Shown here piece by piece: positions 5,422 to 64,000 of a stretch of DNA of 64,000 bases (position 1 is the stretch's first letter; every line of letters starts with the position of its first letter). Under the pieces are notes generated by a model. That model was not told the DNA's origin. It ran no database searches and saw nothing but the letters and a program-made list of their open reading frames with translations. The DNA comes from Erythrobacter sp. AP23 (lineage in GTDB: Bacteria > Pseudomonadota > Alphaproteobacteria > Sphingomonadales > Sphingomonadaceae), in assembly GCF_001542855.1 (NCBI RefSeq), contig NZ_LNBY01000015.1, forward strand, positions 310,001 to 374,000, written 5' to 3'. The position numbers and the translations under genes were made by a program.

Positions 5422-5718
5422 TCAGTTGCCGATATCTTCGGCCATCGCATCCATCGCGGCAGCGGCCGTGTCGGCGGCATTGTCGCCAGCTTCCTGGATC
5501 TGCGCCTCTTCGCTCGGGGACATGCCTTCGGGTTCGGGGGCCGTTTCTTCGATCGTGGCCGCCGGATCCTCGACCGGCTCGGCATCGATGTCGGCCAGCG
5601 CTTCGTCCGCCGCGATTTCGACAGTGTCGGCTTCGGCTTCGGTCGAAGCATCCTCGGTGCTGCCGCAGGCGGCAAGCGCGATGGTGGCGGCGGCGGTCAG
5701 GGCGATACGGAATTTCAT
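5422..5718 (-). CDS. small acidic lipoprotein, unknown function
   Basis: 98 residues. MKFRIALTAAATIALAACGS is a clear lipoprotein signal with lipobox LAAC. The mature part is almost entirely Ala, Glu, Asp, Thr and Pro, low in complexity and strongly acidic. No family is recognised. It resembles the neighbouring lipoprotein at 5075-5350 in size and composition, so the two may be related, but the similarity is compositional only. It diverges from recQ, with about 120 bases between them holding both promoters. The GAGAGAGAC-like purine run upstream can act as ribosome binding site. Confidence 0.72.
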   Translation of the reverse strand: MKFRIALTAAATIALAACGSTEDASTEAEADTVEIAADEALADIDAEPVEDPAATIEETAPEPEGMSPSEEAQIQEAGDNAADTAAAAMDAMAEDIGN

Positions 5719-5838
5719 GGCGTCTCTCTCCGGATTGGACGTGTTGCCGGCGGATAAAGCGCAAGCGGAGTGCGCTGGGCAAGGGGAAAATCGCATACCG
5801 CCGGTTGCGCCTGCGCGCGTGTCTGGCATCAGGCCGGG

Positions 5839-7608
5839 ATGAGCGGAAACGCAGGCGCACTCCAGGCCCTAAAGGACACATTCGGTTTCGACGCCTTTCG
5901 CGGGCGGCAGGGAGAGGTCGTTGCGCGCGTGCTCAATCGGCAATCGACGCTGGCCGTCATGCCGACCGGCGCGGGCAAGTCGCTCACCTATCAGCTCCCC
6001 GCGGTGATGATGGAAGGCACCTGCGTGGTCATCAGTCCGCTGATCGCGCTGATGCACGACCAGCTGCGCAGCGCGCGCGCCAACGGTATCCGCGCGGCCA
6101 CGCTGACCAGCGCCGATGCCGACTGGCGCGAGACGCAGGAGGCTTTCCGCGCGGGCGAGCTCGATCTGCTCTATGTCGCGCCCGAGCGTGCAAGCCAGCC
6201 AGCTTTCCGCGAGTTCCTGAGCGCCGCACCCCTGTGCCTGTTCGCGATCGACGAGGCGCATTGCGTGTCCGAATGGGGGCACGATTTCCGCCCCGACTAC
6301 CGGCTGCTGCGCGGGGTGATGGATGGTTTTCCGCAGGTCCCGCGCCTCGCTCTGACCGCGACCGCCGACCAGCAGACGCGCGCCGATGTGATGGCGCAGC
6401 TCGGTATTGCCGAAGATGGACTCGTTCTCGCCGGGTTCGATCGGCCCAATATCCGCTACGCCATCCGCCACCGCGACAATCCGGTGCGCCAGCTGACCAA
6501 TTTGATGGCGAGCGAGGCGGGGCCGGGAATCGTCTATGCTCAGACGAGGCGCAAGGTGGAGGATCTGGCCGAGAAGCTCGCCCCCGCGACCGGAAGGCCG
6601 GTGCTGCCTTATCACGCGGGGCTGGATTCCAAGGTTCGCGCAGCCAATCAGGCCGCCTTCGTTGCCAGCGAGGACATGGTGATCGTCGCCACGGTCGCCT
6701 TCGGCATGGGGATCGACAAGCCCGACGTGCGGTTCGTCGCGCATGTCGGCGTGCCGAAGTCGATCGAGGCCTATTATCAGGAAACCGGCCGCGCGGGGCG
6801 CGACGGCGATCCGAGCCAGGCGGTCATGTTCTGGGGCGCGGGCGATTTCGCGACCGCGCGCCAGCGGCTCGCCGAAGTCGAGGAGGCGCGGCGCAATGCC
6901 GAGCGCGCGCGGCTCGATGCGCTCGCCGGGCTGGTAGAGACTGCCGAATGCCGCCGCGCGGTGCTGCTGCGGCATTTCGGCGAGGATCCGCCCAGAACCT
7001 GCGGCAATTGCGACAATTGTCTCGAACAACCCGGGGTCACCGACGTCACCGAACTGGCGCGCAAGCTCTTGTCGGCGGTCTACCGCACCGGGCAGAGCTT
7101 CGGCATGGGGCACTTGCAGAAGGTCCTGACCGGCAACGAGGACGAGCGCGTGCGTCAACGCGGGCACGACCGGCTGAGCGTGTTCGGCATCGTCGGGGGC
7201 GAGGAGGCGCGCCTGCTCCAGCCGCTGTCGCGGGCCTTGCAGGCGCGCGGCGACCTTGTCGCGACCGAGCATGGCGGGCTGGCGCTGGGCGGATCGGCGC
7301 GCGCAATCCTCAAGGGGGAGAGCGCGGTCGAGATCGTCGTCCCACCCAGGCGACAACGCAAGCGCCGCGGCGATGCAACGCCCAATCCGGTGGGCGACCC
7401 GCTTTTCGAGGCGCTGCGCGCCTTGCGCAAGGAACTGGCCGAGGAGGCGCAGGTGCCGCCCTATGTGATCTTCCACGATTCCACTCTGCGCGAAATGGCA
7501 GCAGCGCGGCCTGCAACGACCGCACAATTGGCTCAACTGCCGGGCATCGGCGCGAAGAAGCTGGAAGCCTATGGAGAGCGTTTCCTGCGCACGATCGCCC
7601 AACATTGA
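5839..7608 (+). CDS. recQ: ATP-dependent DNA helicase RecQ
   Basis: 589 residues. Superfamily 2 helicase with Walker A MPTGAGKSL near residue 38, the DEAH box in AIDEAHC near 137, the QETGRAGRDG motif VI, then the RecQ-C-terminal zinc site with four cysteines in AECRR and CGNCDNC, and a C-terminal HRDC-like domain ending in LPGIGAKK. RecQ unwinds 3'-tailed and forked DNA in recombination and fork repair. The start MSGNAGAL was chosen because helicase homology begins just after it; an upstream ATG at 5770 adds a non-homologous stretch. Confidence 0.96.
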   Translation: MSGNAGALQALKDTFGFDAFRGRQGEVVARVLNRQSTLAVMPTGAGKSLTYQLPAVMMEGTCVVISPLIALMHDQLRSARANGIRAATLTSADADWRETQEAFRAGELDLLYVAPERASQPAFREFLSAAPLCLFAIDEAHCVSEWGHDFRPDYRLLRGVMDGFPQVPRLALTATADQQTRADVMAQLGIAEDGLVLAGFDRPNIRYAIRHRDNPVRQLTNLMASEAGPGIVYAQTRRKVEDLAEKLAPATGRPVLPYHAGLDSKVRAANQAAFVASEDMVIVATVAFGMGIDKPDVRFVAHVGVPKSIEAYYQETGRAGRDGDPSQAVMFWGAGDFATARQRLAEVEEARRNAERARLDALAGLVETAECRRAVLLRHFGEDPPRTCGNCDNCLEQPGVTDVTELARKLLSAVYRTGQSFGMGHLQKVLTGNEDERVRQRGHDRLSVFGIVGGEEARLLQPLSRALQARGDLVATEHGGLALGGSARAILKGESAVEIVVPPRRQRKRRGDATPNPVGDPLFEALRALRKELAEEAQVPPYVIFHDSTLREMAAARPATTAQLAQLPGIGAKKLEAYGERFLRTIAQH

Positions 7609-16834: not shown

Positions 16835-18642
16835 GTCTTGAGCGTCGCTTTCATTTCCAGCCGGAGCGCGTTGCCGAGCAGGAAACCCTCCGCGAGATCT
16901 TCGATCCTCAGCTCGGCTTCCCTCGCCCTGCCCTCGTCCAGCAGGGTCTGGCGATAGACACCGGGCAGCAGGCCGAGGCTGGCGGGAGGGGTCAGGAGCA
17001 CGCCGTCCTCGCCCTTCACGAAGATATTGGTCACACAGCCTTCGGTCAGCAGCCCGTCCTCGCGCACGAACAACGCCTCCTGCGCGCCGTGCTGTCGGAC
17101 GATGCGCTGCGCATCTTCATAGAAGCCGCGATCAGAACTCTTGTGCCTTAGGCGCCAGTCCCCCGGATCCACCGGCAGCGGCAGCACGATGCAACTGGCC
17201 GGCTGGGGCCAGGCCTCGGGCATGTCCTGCGCCTCGAGCGCTATCGACCCCGCACGCGATGCGAGCAAGCGCACCCGGCTCGGTTTCTCGAGCACGAAAC
17301 ACAGCGCGTGAAGCTGGTTGCGCGCCTCGTGACGGTCGAAGGCGAAGCCCAGTTCGGCCGCGCTCCTCTTGATACGCAGCAAGTGGCTTTCGATATACGG
17401 GATCCCCGTTTCGGGCGTAAACCGCATCGTTTCGATCAGGTCGAACTGCGCTGCGCGCTGATCCGGCGCGGACGTGCGCGCAAAGGCGCCCTTGAGAATC
17501 GCTTCGCGCCATTCGGTGCGCGGCTCGCTATCGGCGACGATGGCACCTCCTACGCCGAGCACCGCTTTGCCGCGGGCATTCTCGATTTCGGTCAGCCGCA
17601 GCGTCCGGATCGCCACGTTGAAGGCGGCATCCCCGTCCGCCCCGATGCGCCCGATCGCGCCGCAATAGGGGCCTCGCGGATCGCGCTCGACATCGCCGAT
17701 CAGTTCCATCGCGCGGATCTTGGGCGCGCCGGTGATCGAACCGCAGGGAAACAGCGCCCGAACGAGATCGATGGCGCCCTCGTCCTTCTCCAGCCGGGCG
17801 CGAACGACGCTCACCATCTGGTGGATGGTCGGATAGCTCTCGATCGCGAAGGGATCGTCCACCCGAACGCTGCCCGCCTCCGCCACGCGCGACAGATCGT
17901 TGCGCATGAGGTCGACGATCATCAGGTTCTCCGCCCTGTCCTTGACCGATCGGGCCAGCTCCTCGGCGAAGGCGCGATCCGCCGCGTCGTCATGACCGCG
18001 CGGACGCGTGCCCTTCATCGGCTTGGCCTTGGCCTCGCGCGCCTTGAGCGACACGAACAGTTCGGGGCTGAGGCTGAGCAGCCAGTGCGAGCCGTCGAAC
18101 ACCAGCCCGCCATAGCCCGCCTGCGCCGCCGGGCGCAGCGCGGCATAGAGTCCCAGCGGATCCCCGGTGAAGCCGCCTGCCAGCGGGAAGGTGAGGTTTG
18201 CCTGGTAGATATCGCCTGCGCGGATCGCCTCCTGCAGCGTGGCGAAGGCCTGCTCGTAACCGCCGGGCGAGAGCTGAGGATCGAGCGGGCCGACGCTGCC
18301 GCTGCCCTGGGCATGCGCTTCCAGCCAGCCGGGCACTTCTTCGGCCGCGATGCGCGTCGGGGCATCGAACAGGCCGAGCCACACCAGCGGCCCCGCCGCG
18401 CCGCTGCGCGCATCGGCCAGCGGGCGCAGCTTTTCTTCCAGAGCGAGTCCCGCCTCGTAACCGATGTAACCCGCCAGCTCGCCGCCCGCCCGGCGTGCGT
18501 CCTCCGCGGCGGAGAGCACCGCGTCGACCTCGTCGGCACGGCGGGCGATGAAAACCTCGCGCGGATTTTCGAACAGCAGCGCATCGGCCGCACCGCTTTC
18601 GCGCGCATCGTCGAGCAGGACAAAGGGATGCCGTTCCGCCAT
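16831..18642 (-). CDS. pabBC: aminodeoxychorismate synthase component I / aminodeoxychorismate lyase fusion
   Basis: 603 residues in two parts. Residues 1 to about 385 are Pab[19 protein letters not shown] with the lysine diagnostic of ADC synthase, [23 protein letters not shown]. From about residue 395 to the end is a class IV PLP fold like Pab[33 protein letters not shown]. The fusion makes p-aminobenzoate from chorismate for folate synthesis; the glutamine amidotransferase subunit PabA is not in the window. It overlaps the rluA-family gene by 4 bases. Confidence 0.92.
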
Positions 18643-60000: not shown

Positions 60001-60568
60001 AAATCTCCTTGCGTGAGTGTGCAAGGACGTTCGCGTACGCCTTTGCGAAAGTTACACGAGCGAATCGCTGCGAGCGTTTCGAGACGCGGCGCCGACTTCT
60101 AGGGGGGAGGGAGAGGAATGTCGGCGGCCGCGTCTCTACTCGCTGCCATATCGCCTCGCCGGTGCGGGGGGCCGGTGGCCGGCCGCTATTGGCGAGGAAG
60201 GCCAGAAGCACGGTTGCTTGGGGGACCGACGCTCCTGCAAATCGTCCGGGACGGAGTATCAGGGGTCACCGTCCGGCTGTGAAGTCGGTAATAATCTTTC
60301 AGTCGAGTGATAGAAAGTGAGAAAAGGTTGAACGACGTTGCGTTTTGCGCAACGCAGTATTCATATGCATTTGGGCCTGATGAGCGGCATTCCGCTATTC
60401 CCGGCGGGAGAAGGTCCGGGCATTCCTTGCGAATTGCATCGAAATGCACAGCCGCAATGTCGAGCAGGCACCGCCGCAAGCGCCGCTAGGCCCGTTCTCC
60501 AGCGTCTGCCACTCAATCGGTTCGCTGGTGCTGGACAGGCGTGGCGCGCTGGCCTTAACGGGTGCGCC
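60001..60568. other. 568-base intergenic region before guaA
   Basis: No convincing gene is seen. The stretch holds several inverted repeats, for example CGTTGCG/CGCAACG (60336-60354) around TTTTG, and GGCCGG/CCGGCC near 60170-60185. The middle part (about 60290-60400) is AT-richer. The guaA frame stays open without stops back to 60338, but this leader lacks GuaA homology. It may hold the guaA promoter and the promoter of the small leftward gene at 59914-59997. Confidence 0.5.
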
Positions 60569-62143
60569 ATGCAGGCAGAACATCTTCCCGATTCCATTCT
60601 GATCGTCGACTTCGGCAGTCAGGTCACCCAGCTTATTGCACGCCGCGTGCGCGAGGCGGGGGTCTATTCGGAGATCGCACCGTTCACACAGGCGGAAGAT
60701 GCCTTCAATCGGCTCAAGCCCAAGGGTGTGATCCTGTCCGGCGGCCCGGCCAGCGTGCCCGATGAAGACAGCCCGCGCGCGCCCGACATCATCTTCGGAT
60801 CCGGCGTGCCCGTACTCGGCATTTGCTATGGCCAGCAGGTCATGACCCACCAGCTCGGCGGCGAGGTCCGCCCGGGGCATGAAACCGGCGAGGGCGGCGA
60901 GTTCGGCCGCGCATTCTGCGAGGTGTCGGATGAATGCGTCCTTTTCGACGGCCTGTGGAAGCCGGGCGAAACGCACCAGGTTTGGATGAGCCACGGTGAC
61001 AAGGTTACCCGGATTGCCGAGGGTTTCCGTATCGTCGCAACAAGCTCCGGTGCGCCCTTCGCGCTGATCGCCGATGACGAGCGCCGCTATTACGGCACCC
61101 AGTTCCATCCCGAAGTGGTCCATACGCCCGATGGCGGCAAGCTGCTGGCCAATTTCGTGCGTCACGTCTGCGGCCTGGCGGGCGACTGGACCATGGCCGA
61201 ATTCCGCAAGACCAAGATCGCCGAAATCCGTGAACAGGTCGGCGACGGCAAGGTCATCTGTGGCCTGTCGGGCGGCGTCGATTCCGCGGTTGCCGCAGTC
61301 CTCATCCACGAGGCGATCGGCGAACAGCTGACTTGCGTATTCGTCGACCACGGTCTGATGCGCATGAACGAGGCCGAGCAGGTCGTCACGCTGTTCCGCG
61401 ACCATTACAATATCCCGCTGGTCCACGTGGATGCCGAGGACATGTTTCTCGAAGGGCTGGCCGGCCAGACCGACCCCGAAAAGAAGCGCAAGTTCATCGG
61501 CGGCGCCTTCATCGACCTGTTCGAGGCCGAGGCCAAGAAGATCGGTGGCGCGGATTTCCTCGCACAGGGCACGCTTTATCCCGACGTGATCGAAAGCGTC
61601 AGCTTTACCGGCGGGCCCAGCGTCACGATCAAGAGCCACCACAATGTCGGCGGTCTTCCAGAACGTATGAACATGCAACTGGTCGAACCCTTGCGCGAAC
61701 TGTTCAAGGACGAGGTCCGCGAATTGGGGCGCGAGCTGGGCCTGCCCGAGATTTTCGTGGGCCGCCATCCCTTCCCCGGCCCGGGCCTGGCCATCCGCAT
61801 CCCTGGCGAAGTGACCAAGGAACGCTGCGACATCCTGCGCAAGGCCGACGCGATCTACCTTGAGGAAATCCGCAATGCGGGTCTTTACGACGCGATCTGG
61901 CAGGCCTTCGCCGTGCTGCTGCCGGTCAAGACCGTCGGCGTGATGGGCGACGGGCGCACCTACGACAGCGTCTGCGGACTGCGTGCGGTGACCAGCACCG
62001 ATGGCATGACTGCCGATATCTATCCCTTCGACAGCACTTTTCTCAGCCGCGTCGCCACGCGCATCATCAACGAGGTACAGGGCATCAACCGCGTGGTATA
62101 CGACTATACGTCGAAGCCCCCGGGCACGATCGAATGGGAGTGA
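60569..62143 (+). CDS. guaA: GMP synthase (glutamine-hydrolysing)
   Basis: 524 residues. Class I glutamine amidotransferase (1-200) with [14 protein letters not shown], the nucleophile in LGICYGQQ and the histidine in QFHPEV; ATP pyrophosphatase with SGGVDSAV near 228; C-terminal dimerisation domain ending KPPGTIEWE. It makes GMP from XMP. The start MQAEHLPDS fits the homology. A second, diverged copy of the last 32 codons lies at 63602-63700. Confidence 0.97.
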
Positions 62144-62220
62144 GGCCAGCGGAGGCCGGGGAACATCCCCCACAGCCTCCCGTTCCAATTGCGAGACTTA
62201 TTGTCGCAAGGGGAGCCCCA

Positions 62221-62664
62221 ATGATCCGTCGCACGCTTGTCACCGCCACCGCTGCTATCGCTCTTACCGGCTGCGAAACGGTCCAGCAGACCTATACCGA
62301 GGCCATTTCTTCGACCTATACTGCCGAACTAAGCGGCGCGAACGAGGTGCATCCGGGCGATCCCGATGGGTCGGGGTTGGCGGAAATCAGCTTTGCCGAC
62401 GAGCTTACGCGGGTGTGCTGGGACCTGAGCGATCTTGAAAACATTGCGCCGATCACGGGCGCGCATATCCATCGCGGTGCCGCAGGAACGGATGGTCCAG
62501 TGGTCCTCCCTCTCAAGCAGGCGACCGAGGGCGGCTGGCGTGGATGCAGCAGCGATACCTCGTGGGTGCAACAGGCCTTCGACGAAGGCATCGGCAATTA
62601 TTACGTGAACGTCCACACGGCAGAATATCCCAGGGGCGCAATTCGCGGACAATTGCAGCAGTAG
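62221..62664 (+). CDS. CHRD-domain lipoprotein
   Basis: 147 residues. MIRRTLVTATAAIALTGCET is a lipoprotein signal with lipobox LTGC. The mature part is a CHRD domain (named after chordin): YTAELSGANEVHPGDPDGSG, then ITGAHIHRGAAGTDGPVV and NYYVNVHTAEYPRGAIRGQL. CHRD domains occur in many secreted bacterial proteins and have no defined activity. It lies 77 bases after guaA and before the guaA tail copy, inside a possible inserted segment. Confidence 0.9.
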   Translation: MIRRTLVTATAAIALTGCETVQQTYTEAISSTYTAELSGANEVHPGDPDGSGLAEISFADELTRVCWDLSDLENIAPITGAHIHRGAAGTDGPVVLPLKQATEGGWRGCSSDTSWVQQAFDEGIGNYYVNVHTAEYPRGAIRGQLQQ

Positions 62665-62689
62665 AGCGCAAAGCGGGGAGGGGCGGGAC

Positions 62690-63550
62690 TTGACTTCGAT
62701 ATCTAGCGGAACAGTCCTCCTCATACCGCTGACGCTTTGCCTTGCCGCATGCGCAACCACGCCGGACGTCGCGACAGCGCTTGACTGCAAGGCTCCCGAA
62801 AAGCTGGGCCTGTACGATCCCTCGCGCGATCTTCTGGTTGCCAATTACGATTCCAAACCCGACGTCGATGATTTGCAGGCGGTCGCGGGGCTGGGATCGG
62901 TGCTCAGGCACCCCGACTATGCCTGTATCGACTATATCGCCACCGCCGGTGCCTATGGCTCGCAGGGCGGGAAGTTTCTTCCGGCAGCACAGCTCTTCAC
63001 TCTCGCATTCGGCGCCAAGTGGTTGGACGCGCACACCGATCGCGATGCCACGGTCGTCGCGCTCGCCGAGCGGATGCACACGACTATTGCGCGTGGCGGC
63101 AGGGTGTGGGTTGCCGAGGCGGGGCAGTCCGACGTGACCGCTGCTGCGGTCGAGCAGCTGCCAAAGGACATGTGGACCGGCGTTCACGTGGTCCAGCACA
63201 GTTATTGGAATGAAAGCATGACCAGTGACGAGGCGATGCAGACGGTCGTCTACAACACACGCTATCACCGCATCCAGGACGGCAATTTCCCTGACAATGG
63301 CTCGCCCGCCTTCAATACGACGGAAAATCGGCACTGGCAGGCGCTGCTCGCCGACCCGCACATCGGCCCGATCTGGGCCGAAGCAAAACGCCTGTCCGAC
63401 CTTCACAACCCGGTAGCTGCCTATGTGAACCCGGCGGTCGCTGCAGGTGGGCTCGATTTCTCGGATACGGTCGAAATCGCCTACATCTTCGGCTTTGACG
63501 ACATGGAGGGTGTCGGGGATTTCGTGGAGCGGTTTGCGCGCGGCGAATAG
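62690..63550 (+). CDS. lipoprotein with nucleoside-hydrolase-like domain
   Basis: 286 residues from a TTG start after GGGGAGGGG. A lipoprotein signal ends in the lipobox LAAC (CLAACAT, cysteine about 21). The next part VANYDSKPDVDDLQAVAGL resembles the Asp-rich calcium-binding N-terminal motif of inosine/uridine nucleoside hydrolases, but the classical DTDPGxDD is altered. The rest has matching alpha/beta segments, for example GRVWVAEAGQSDVTAAA. Hydrolase activity is therefore only a possibility. It ends 51 bases before the guaA tail copy. Confidence 0.65.
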   Translation: MTSISSGTVLLIPLTLCLAACATTPDVATALDCKAPEKLGLYDPSRDLLVANYDSKPDVDDLQAVAGLGSVLRHPDYACIDYIATAGAYGSQGGKFLPAAQLFTLAFGAKWLDAHTDRDATVVALAERMHTTIARGGRVWVAEAGQSDVTAAAVEQLPKDMWTGVHVVQHSYWNESMTSDEAMQTVVYNTRYHRIQDGNFPDNGSPAFNTTENRHWQALLADPHIGPIWAEAKRLSDLHNPVAAYVNPAVAAGGLDFSDTVEIAYIFGFDDMEGVGDFVERFARGE

Positions 63551-63601
63551 ACGGAGCCAACGGGACGAGCGCGGAATTCGGGCCATGGGAGCGTCGCCCG
63601 C

Positions 63602-63700
63602 GGCCGTGTCGCCTCCCACATCACCAATGATGTTCAGCGTATCAATCGGCTGGTGTATGACGGTGCTTCGAAGCCGCCCACCAATATCGAATGGGAGTAG
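63602..63700 (+). pseudogene. displaced copy of the guaA 3' end
   Basis: Read in frame it encodes [20 protein letters not shown] and then [11 protein letters not shown] and a stop, matching the last 32 residues of the intact GuaA at 21 positions. Upstream of 63602 the frame has no GuaA homology, so only the tail is present. Codons differ at many synonymous sites, so the two copies are old or of different origin. A displaced guaA 3' end is the classical scar left when an integrative element enters at the guaA terminus. Confidence 0.85.
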
Positions 63701-63703
63701 TCA

Positions 63704-64000
63704 ATGCAGCCAGACGAAGTGCTGATTCGCATCGCCTCCGGGCGGACCGACCTGTTCGTCGATCTGTTGAAGCGCGACGACTGGCGCGACGTTTTGACGC
63801 AGGGGCGCATCAAGCCGCTGCAGTGGCTGGTCTATTACGACGACGTCACTGCAATGAAGCTGGTGCTCGATGCCGGCGGGGACTTGTCGAGCATCGACCT
63901 CGATGAAGAATTGGGAAACGCCGCGTTCTTCGGTCACTGGAAGATGTGCGACTTCCTGCTGATGCAAGGCGCCGATGCGCGCTATGCCAATGCGGACACC
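63704..64000 (+). CDS. ankyrin-repeat protein, N-terminal part
   Basis: At least 99 residues; the frame runs off the right edge. It begins MQPDEVLIRIASGRTDLFVD. Ankyrin-type units are seen as VTAMKLVLDAGGDLSSID and LGNAAFFGHWKMCDFLLMQGADARYANAD in parts, the helix-loop-helix periodicity with the GADxxxxN turn. No signal peptide is seen, so it is probably cytoplasmic. It follows the displaced guaA tail by 3 bases. Confidence 0.8.
   Translation, partial: MQPDEVLIRIASGRTDLFVDLLKRDDWRDVLTQGRIKPLQWLVYYDDVTAMKLVLDAGGDLSSIDLDEELGNAAFFGHWKMCDFLLMQGADARYANADT

Follow-up and report, generated by a model that had tools for sequence, protein, structure and literature searches.

A decayed second guaA 3' end beside an ankyrin-repeat gene in an Erythrobacter genome: a probable scar of acquired DNA

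Introduction

Does the second copy of a gene end, located downstream of the intact gene, mark the boundary of a genomic island, or did it arrive with the gene that follows it? This question is raised by the window, the 64,000-nucleotide stretch of Erythrobacter sp. AP23 DNA analysed here, in which a diverged guaA 3' end (termed the relic) lies 1.5 kb downstream of intact guaA. The guaA 3' end is a site of genomic islands according to the available sections of PMC9376610, PMC4844618 and PMC7775301. The original prediction regarded the relic as a tail displaced by an old insertion and marking its far boundary, with the region 62144-63601 as the remnant of the island.

Results

A genuine, decayed second guaA 3' end is present

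The genes of the locus are arranged in the order guaA, CHRD, gene2, relic, ANK, HhH-GPD glycosylase-like (HhH) gene, and the genes for an Nramp transporter, TldD and an ABC protein. Intact guaA, encoding GMP synthase, spans 60569-62143 on the plus strand (Pfam GMP_synt_C 4.4e-42 and GATase 8.6e-40, both obtained on the longer ORF 60338-62143, with the ATG at 60569 as the assumed start). It is followed on the same strand by two genes for lipoprotein-like proteins, both cargo of the hotspot described below: a CHRD-domain gene at 62221-62664 (Pfam CHRD 3.5e-25) and gene2 at 62690-63550, which is found in five congeners and gives no match in Pfam, NCBIfam or the PDB sequences. The G+C rich (74%) junction stretch at 63551-63602, to which no strand is assigned, is unmatched outside the own genome among the loci compared at that stage. 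The relic spans 63603-63700 on the plus strand, including its TAG stop codon (63698-63700), and the ATG of the ankyrin-repeat gene (ANK, 244 amino acids, Pfam Ank_2 5.4e-24) lies three bases behind this stop codon. The start of ANK occupies 63704-64000 on the plus strand, and the gene continues to contig position 374438, 438 bases past the window end; it corresponds to 5704-6438 of locus L003, to which 58000 is added to give the window coordinate. ANK and the HhH gene are separated by 37 bases, in which no guaA end is seen.

A direct-repeat search places the original copy (direct repeat D1) at 62046-62141 and the second copy at 63603-63698, both on the plus strand, with 96 nt, 74% identity and a spacing of 1557. 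At the protein level, 21 of 31 residues of the relic are identical to the tail of the own GuaA, and a stop codon directly follows both copies. The original prediction counted 32 codons, which are actually 31 aligned codons plus the stop codon, while its 21 identical residues and the stop codon are correct. The second copy scores 108, whereas 20 shuffles of 60 kb reach at most 34 and the highest-scoring unrelated site of the window reaches 37. BLASTN of the own genome with the relic region as a query detects two places only, with an E value of 1.9e-10 for intact guaA, and no further guaA pieces. These results confirm that the predicted second guaA 3' end is real. An assembly error is unlikely, because the two copies differ by 26% and are positioned well inside a 489-kb contig.

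The homology breaks off abruptly upstream of the relic, also as predicted, and, of the loci compared at that stage, an 80-base query across this left junction matches those of the window alone. No ORF of at least 25 amino acids ends at the relic stop codon, and a translated relic product is rejected, because no in-frame start codon yields at least 25 amino acids. The relic is considered to be decayed, because it lacks a start codon and has changes at all three codon positions, as described below. GGGAG, as read from the sequence, is located within the relic, 6 nt ahead of the ANK ATG, and derives from guaA codons. Both guaA ends of the window terminate in an identical block of 13-15 nt, which lies on the published integrase core and contains the codon GAA. 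When the guaA 3' ends of 58 loci (L003, L035-L074 and L152-L168) are compared, the published core GAGTGGGA is present in 52 and GAATGGGA in 6, the window included; GAA is likewise found at 6 of the 58 loci, again with the window among them.

An RNA at the junction is rejected as an explanation, because the window contains no tRNA and the nearest Rfam match is a tRNA-Gly approximately 27 kb downstream, which is the only one in the 40 kb around and behind the junction. Two records of a plasmid collection are matched, over the guaA end only, and neither carries an annotation there.

The guaA-HhH interval is a hotspot of gene turnover

The genus sample consists of 60 genomes, and guaA is matched in 57 of them, the own genome included; 57 guaA loci are taken from the 56 other genomes, with G037 represented twice. 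The HhH gene directly follows the guaA stop codon in 10 of these 56 genomes (L055, L058, L059, L061, L063, L064, L065, L070, L072 and L159). Empty sites, which the original prediction suggested searching for in relatives, do exist. The HhH match begins at base 42-47 in L073, L154 and L161. Longer intervals elsewhere contain CHRD, gene2 and, as judged only by eye, transporter-, hydrolase-, P450- and TetR-like genes. CHRD is the sole query gene between guaA and HhH in L040-L045, and the HhH match starts 7-10 bases past the gene2 stop codon in L036, L038 and L039. A good HhH match is lacking in L046, L068, L071, L152, L163, L164, L165 and L168, of which L165 gives a 37% match only. With its conserved flanks, variable content and empty sites, the guaA-HhH interval is a hotspot of gene turnover.

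Among the genus loci, a second guaA end is detected, besides the window, only in G002 at a threshold of score 40 over 31 residues or by short-word BLASTN, of which the remaining matches are 13-21 nt long and are taken as chance. The two-copy arrangement is not universal, in agreement with the original prediction, and its version with ANK is confined to this genome among the genus genomes compared. CHRD and gene2 are located behind guaA in congeners that have no second tail, and therefore neither gene depends on the second tail.

Two loci of this interval have features of their own. In L054 (G018), approximately 75 bases right after the guaA stop codon, ahead of the CHRD gene, represent a remnant of the gene2 3' end, indicating that trimmed ends occur at this interval. 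G037 has two guaA genes (L071 and L168), which are approximately 75% identical over approximately 1 kb, one ending a contig and the other starting another; one of them may be foreign or a contamination.

Displaced gene ends are associated with DUF7662 genes in two congeners

In G002 (contig C7), a DUF7662 insert is located at guaA (L152, approximately 17360-17945, minus strand; also L169, 1375-1902). In this genome, 461 bp separate guaA from a 34-nt copy of its end that is 97% identical. The insert holds one reverse-strand DUF7662 gene, is followed by a CHRD gene, and is a candidate for a single-gene unit. In G010 (contig C4), a DUF7662 insert is located at a uvrA-like gene (L173, 1131-1995, minus strand). 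This ABC-type gene, for which Pfam gives ABC_tran only, is taken as uvrA from its sequence. Between the gene and a 201-nt copy of its end are 463 bp that contain a DUF7662 reading frame. The copy is identical at 183 of 201 positions (91%) and runs to the stop codon, and a gene with a PAPS-reductase domain lies behind the displaced end. The inserts are nearly equal in size, and their target genes differ. These two inserts indicate that gene-end insertions do occur in the genus.

DUF7662 is present in 7 of the 60 genus genomes. The DUF7662 gene adjoins a similar ABC-type gene in G026 and G045, where no copy of the gene end is found. Likewise, L172, L174 and L175 have no comparable repeat pair around the DUF7662 gene; L175 has an 88% repeat of 131 bp elsewhere at the locus. 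In a limited literature collection, no match is found either for displaced guaA ends in Erythrobacter or for DUF7662.

The guaA tail and ANK are contiguous in two genera

ANK is present in 1 of the 60 genus genomes, the own one, and is not found in the other 59, some of which are incomplete, at E <= 1e-20. Among 397 family genomes, the own genome included, it is detected only in this genome and G077, a Parerythrobacter sp. MAG (protein E <= 1e-25; DNA over most of the length). In G077, guaA is intact and the ATG of ANK overlaps its stop codon. The match between the window and G077 begins at the relic and continues into ANK up to the G077 contig end, so that the tail is adjacent to ANK in each of the two genomes. 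An HhH orthologue is absent from the G077 assembly. When genome_contigs (84,980 species) is scanned with two peptide patterns, 40 ANK loci are detected, that of the Parerythrobacter MAG and 39 others. The latter, which are 56-71% identical in the best segment, are mostly from Bacteroidota groups and also from Acidobacteriota, Planctomycetota and Gemmatimonadota, and two of them are taken as gammaproteobacterial. No guaA end is present near these 39 loci within the 4.6-10.7 kb examined, and the neighbouring ORFs of 16 of them are unlike one another as judged by eye. The stand-alone ankyrin-repeat protein (63704-64000 onward; L110-L149) spans several phyla, with differing neighbours.

The relic is identical to the G077 tail at 73 of 93 nt, and the next best value, 68, is common to own guaA and several others. 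The differences from the G077 tail at codon positions 1, 2 and 3 are 7, 5 and 8 for the relic and 1, 0 and 14 for own guaA, and the ANK genes of the two genomes differ at 29, 21 and 66 such positions over 131 codons. The pattern of the relic is consistent with neutral decay of an end that formerly was functional, and that of ANK indicates that this gene stayed under selection. At third positions, the relic differs from the G077 tail at 8 sites and from the other 69 tails at 11 or more. Thus, the G077 tail is nearest to the relic both in total and at third positions among 70 tails (69 distinct ones and the own one), many of which were chosen for their resemblance to the relic. When neutral decay of 19% per site is simulated from the other lineages, the margin of G077 is reproduced in 0 of 13,800 draws.

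Trees, in which the relic was placed beside tips only, give varying results. With all positions of the 93-nt tail and GTR+F+G4, the relic is placed beside a Shinella sequence with a bootstrap value of 22, and the placements beside own guaA and G077 are 0.8 and 1.0 lnL units below the best. With third positions and HKY+F, G077 is first and own guaA is 12 lnL units worse (AU 0.027). With HKY+F+G4, the congener L068 (G016) is first, G077 is third, and own guaA is 4.6 lnL units worse; with GTR+F+G4, L068 (G016) is first, G077 is second, and own guaA is 4.2 lnL units worse. At third positions, the own-guaA placement is rejected by KH in all three models, by SH in HKY+F only, and by AU in two of the three, with one AU value implausibly small and the gamma models in disagreement. 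The placement of so short a tail is fragile, and the full-model trees prefer neither G077 nor own guaA. Because the trees are weak, an origin near G077 is suggested mainly by the shared ANK gene. Tandem duplication of the own guaA end is probably disfavoured, given the closer match of the relic to the G077 tail (73 of 93 nt, as compared to 68 for own guaA) and the colinearity of the relic with ANK.

Discussion

The relic is most likely a scar of acquired DNA that came in with ANK. We consider it about an even bet (probability of roughly 0.48) that a piece of a foreign guaA-ANK locus entered between gene2 and the HhH gene by recombination. The donor would be a relative with a guaA-ANK locus like that of the Parerythrobacter MAG; the direction of transfer and a donor near Parerythrobacter are both presumed. 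When a piece of the donor DNA recombined into this place, the last codons of the donor guaA would have been brought along with ANK, probably because ANK begins directly at the guaA stop codon and has its ribosome-binding region in the guaA end. In the window, GGGAG and the guaA end surrounding it may likewise serve ANK as this region. The guaA piece without a start codon would then have decayed neutrally, with ANK remaining under selection. A donor fragment consisting of the guaA end and ANK and anchored in the HhH gene would yield the observed layout, in which the right side would result from homologous recombination in the HhH gene and the left side from illegitimate joining. Homology-facilitated illegitimate recombination, as described in the available section of PMC3240628, would leave just such a pair of one homologous and one illegitimate junction. 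The HhH 5' end gives 72.8%, as compared to 76.2 +- 4.7, with no clear donor-like 5' end and no clear step in the HhH or guaA profiles.

According to the available part of Oliveira et al. 2017 (PMC5635113), hotspots without mobile elements change by recombination at the flanking core genes. The interval in the window resembles these hotspots in its conserved flanks, its changing cargo and the lack of a recognised mobile-element gene. It differs from those described in that part in that its foreign piece carries the decayed end of a flanking core gene, and recombination at the flank is presumed here.

An insertion that displaced the guaA end is a serious rival. An integrative element carrying CHRD and gene2 would have entered guaA of a guaA-ANK-HhH ancestor, substituted its own copy for the guaA end and displaced the native end to 63603-63700, its integrase having been lost or acting in trans. 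The role of the guaA 3' end as an attachment site, which the original prediction invoked, is borne out by the three reports cited above, as far as their available sections go, and by the clean insertion in G002. The identical 13-15 nt block on the published core and the 461-bp and 463-bp inserts of G002 and G010 also fit this explanation. GIsul2 (8-bp repeat, attB of 19 bp), Tn5801 (11-bp repeat) and ICERspD18B (20-bp repeat), each inserted at the guaA end and each described in the available sections of one or another of these reports, resemble the window in that a second guaA 3'-end piece lies downstream of intact guaA. They differ from it in having an integrase and short repeats at the extreme end, as compared to the homology of 96 nt here. 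Displaced ends of 34 and 201 nt arise by insertion in the congeners, and therefore length alone is no argument against the original prediction. However, CHRD and gene2 are present at the site in congeners without a second tail, with the HhH gene immediately past gene2 in three of these loci, and ANK is not found in the other 59 congeners. None of the 14 PF00589 (tyrosine recombinase) matches of the genome is on the 489-kb contig (C15), in a search that covered tyrosine recombinases only. No identity step is seen at the guaA 3' end in 150-nt windows along the gene, a resolution at which the replacement of a very short end could escape notice, and this end shows no sign of being foreign. For these reasons, there is little to suggest that the region 62144-63601 is an island remnant, and the element is unlikely, although clearly worth weighing. 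What stands of the displaced tail is a displaced guaA end left as a scar of acquired DNA; its role as a far boundary is not supported, because the tail is colinear with ANK, which follows it, and the two are likewise colinear in another genus.

Quite unlikely, in our estimate, is a process in which small integrase-less units settle behind housekeeping genes and leave on their far side a displaced copy of the gene end up to the stop codon. The inserts of G002 and G010 would be fresh examples of such gene-end cassettes, the relic beside ANK would be a decayed trace of one, and the carried end would provide a ready-made ribosome-binding leader. An improbable alternative is the insertion of a longer, second guaA-ANK segment, of which the spare guaA was later deleted down to the last 96 bases; these would have been retained for the ribosome-binding region of ANK that they contain. 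The facts that favour a foreign guaA-ANK piece fit this deletion equally, as do the abrupt, unmatched left junction and the trimmed gene2 end of G018, but no other guaA piece is found in the own genome and nothing separates the deletion from direct joining at 63602. We regard as hardly probable a stepwise accretion, in which ANK arrived at guaA as a small cassette with a guaA end and CHRD-gene2 came later in front of it. This order of events would explain why the relic resembles the G077 tail, and small single-gene inserts with displaced gene ends are known in G002 and G010. It is opposed by the 37 bases between ANK and HhH, in which no guaA end is seen, and by the guaA 3' end of G077, which is not unusual as compared to those of the congeners.

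When a gene end recurs behind a known integration site, the repeat is usually interpreted as the trace of an island. At this locus, the gene neighbourhood in another genus suggests that the relic moved together with the gene on its far side, and an island delimited solely by the repeat would therefore contain the wrong genes. The process can be put to the test, because fresh gene-end duplications are present in two congeners.
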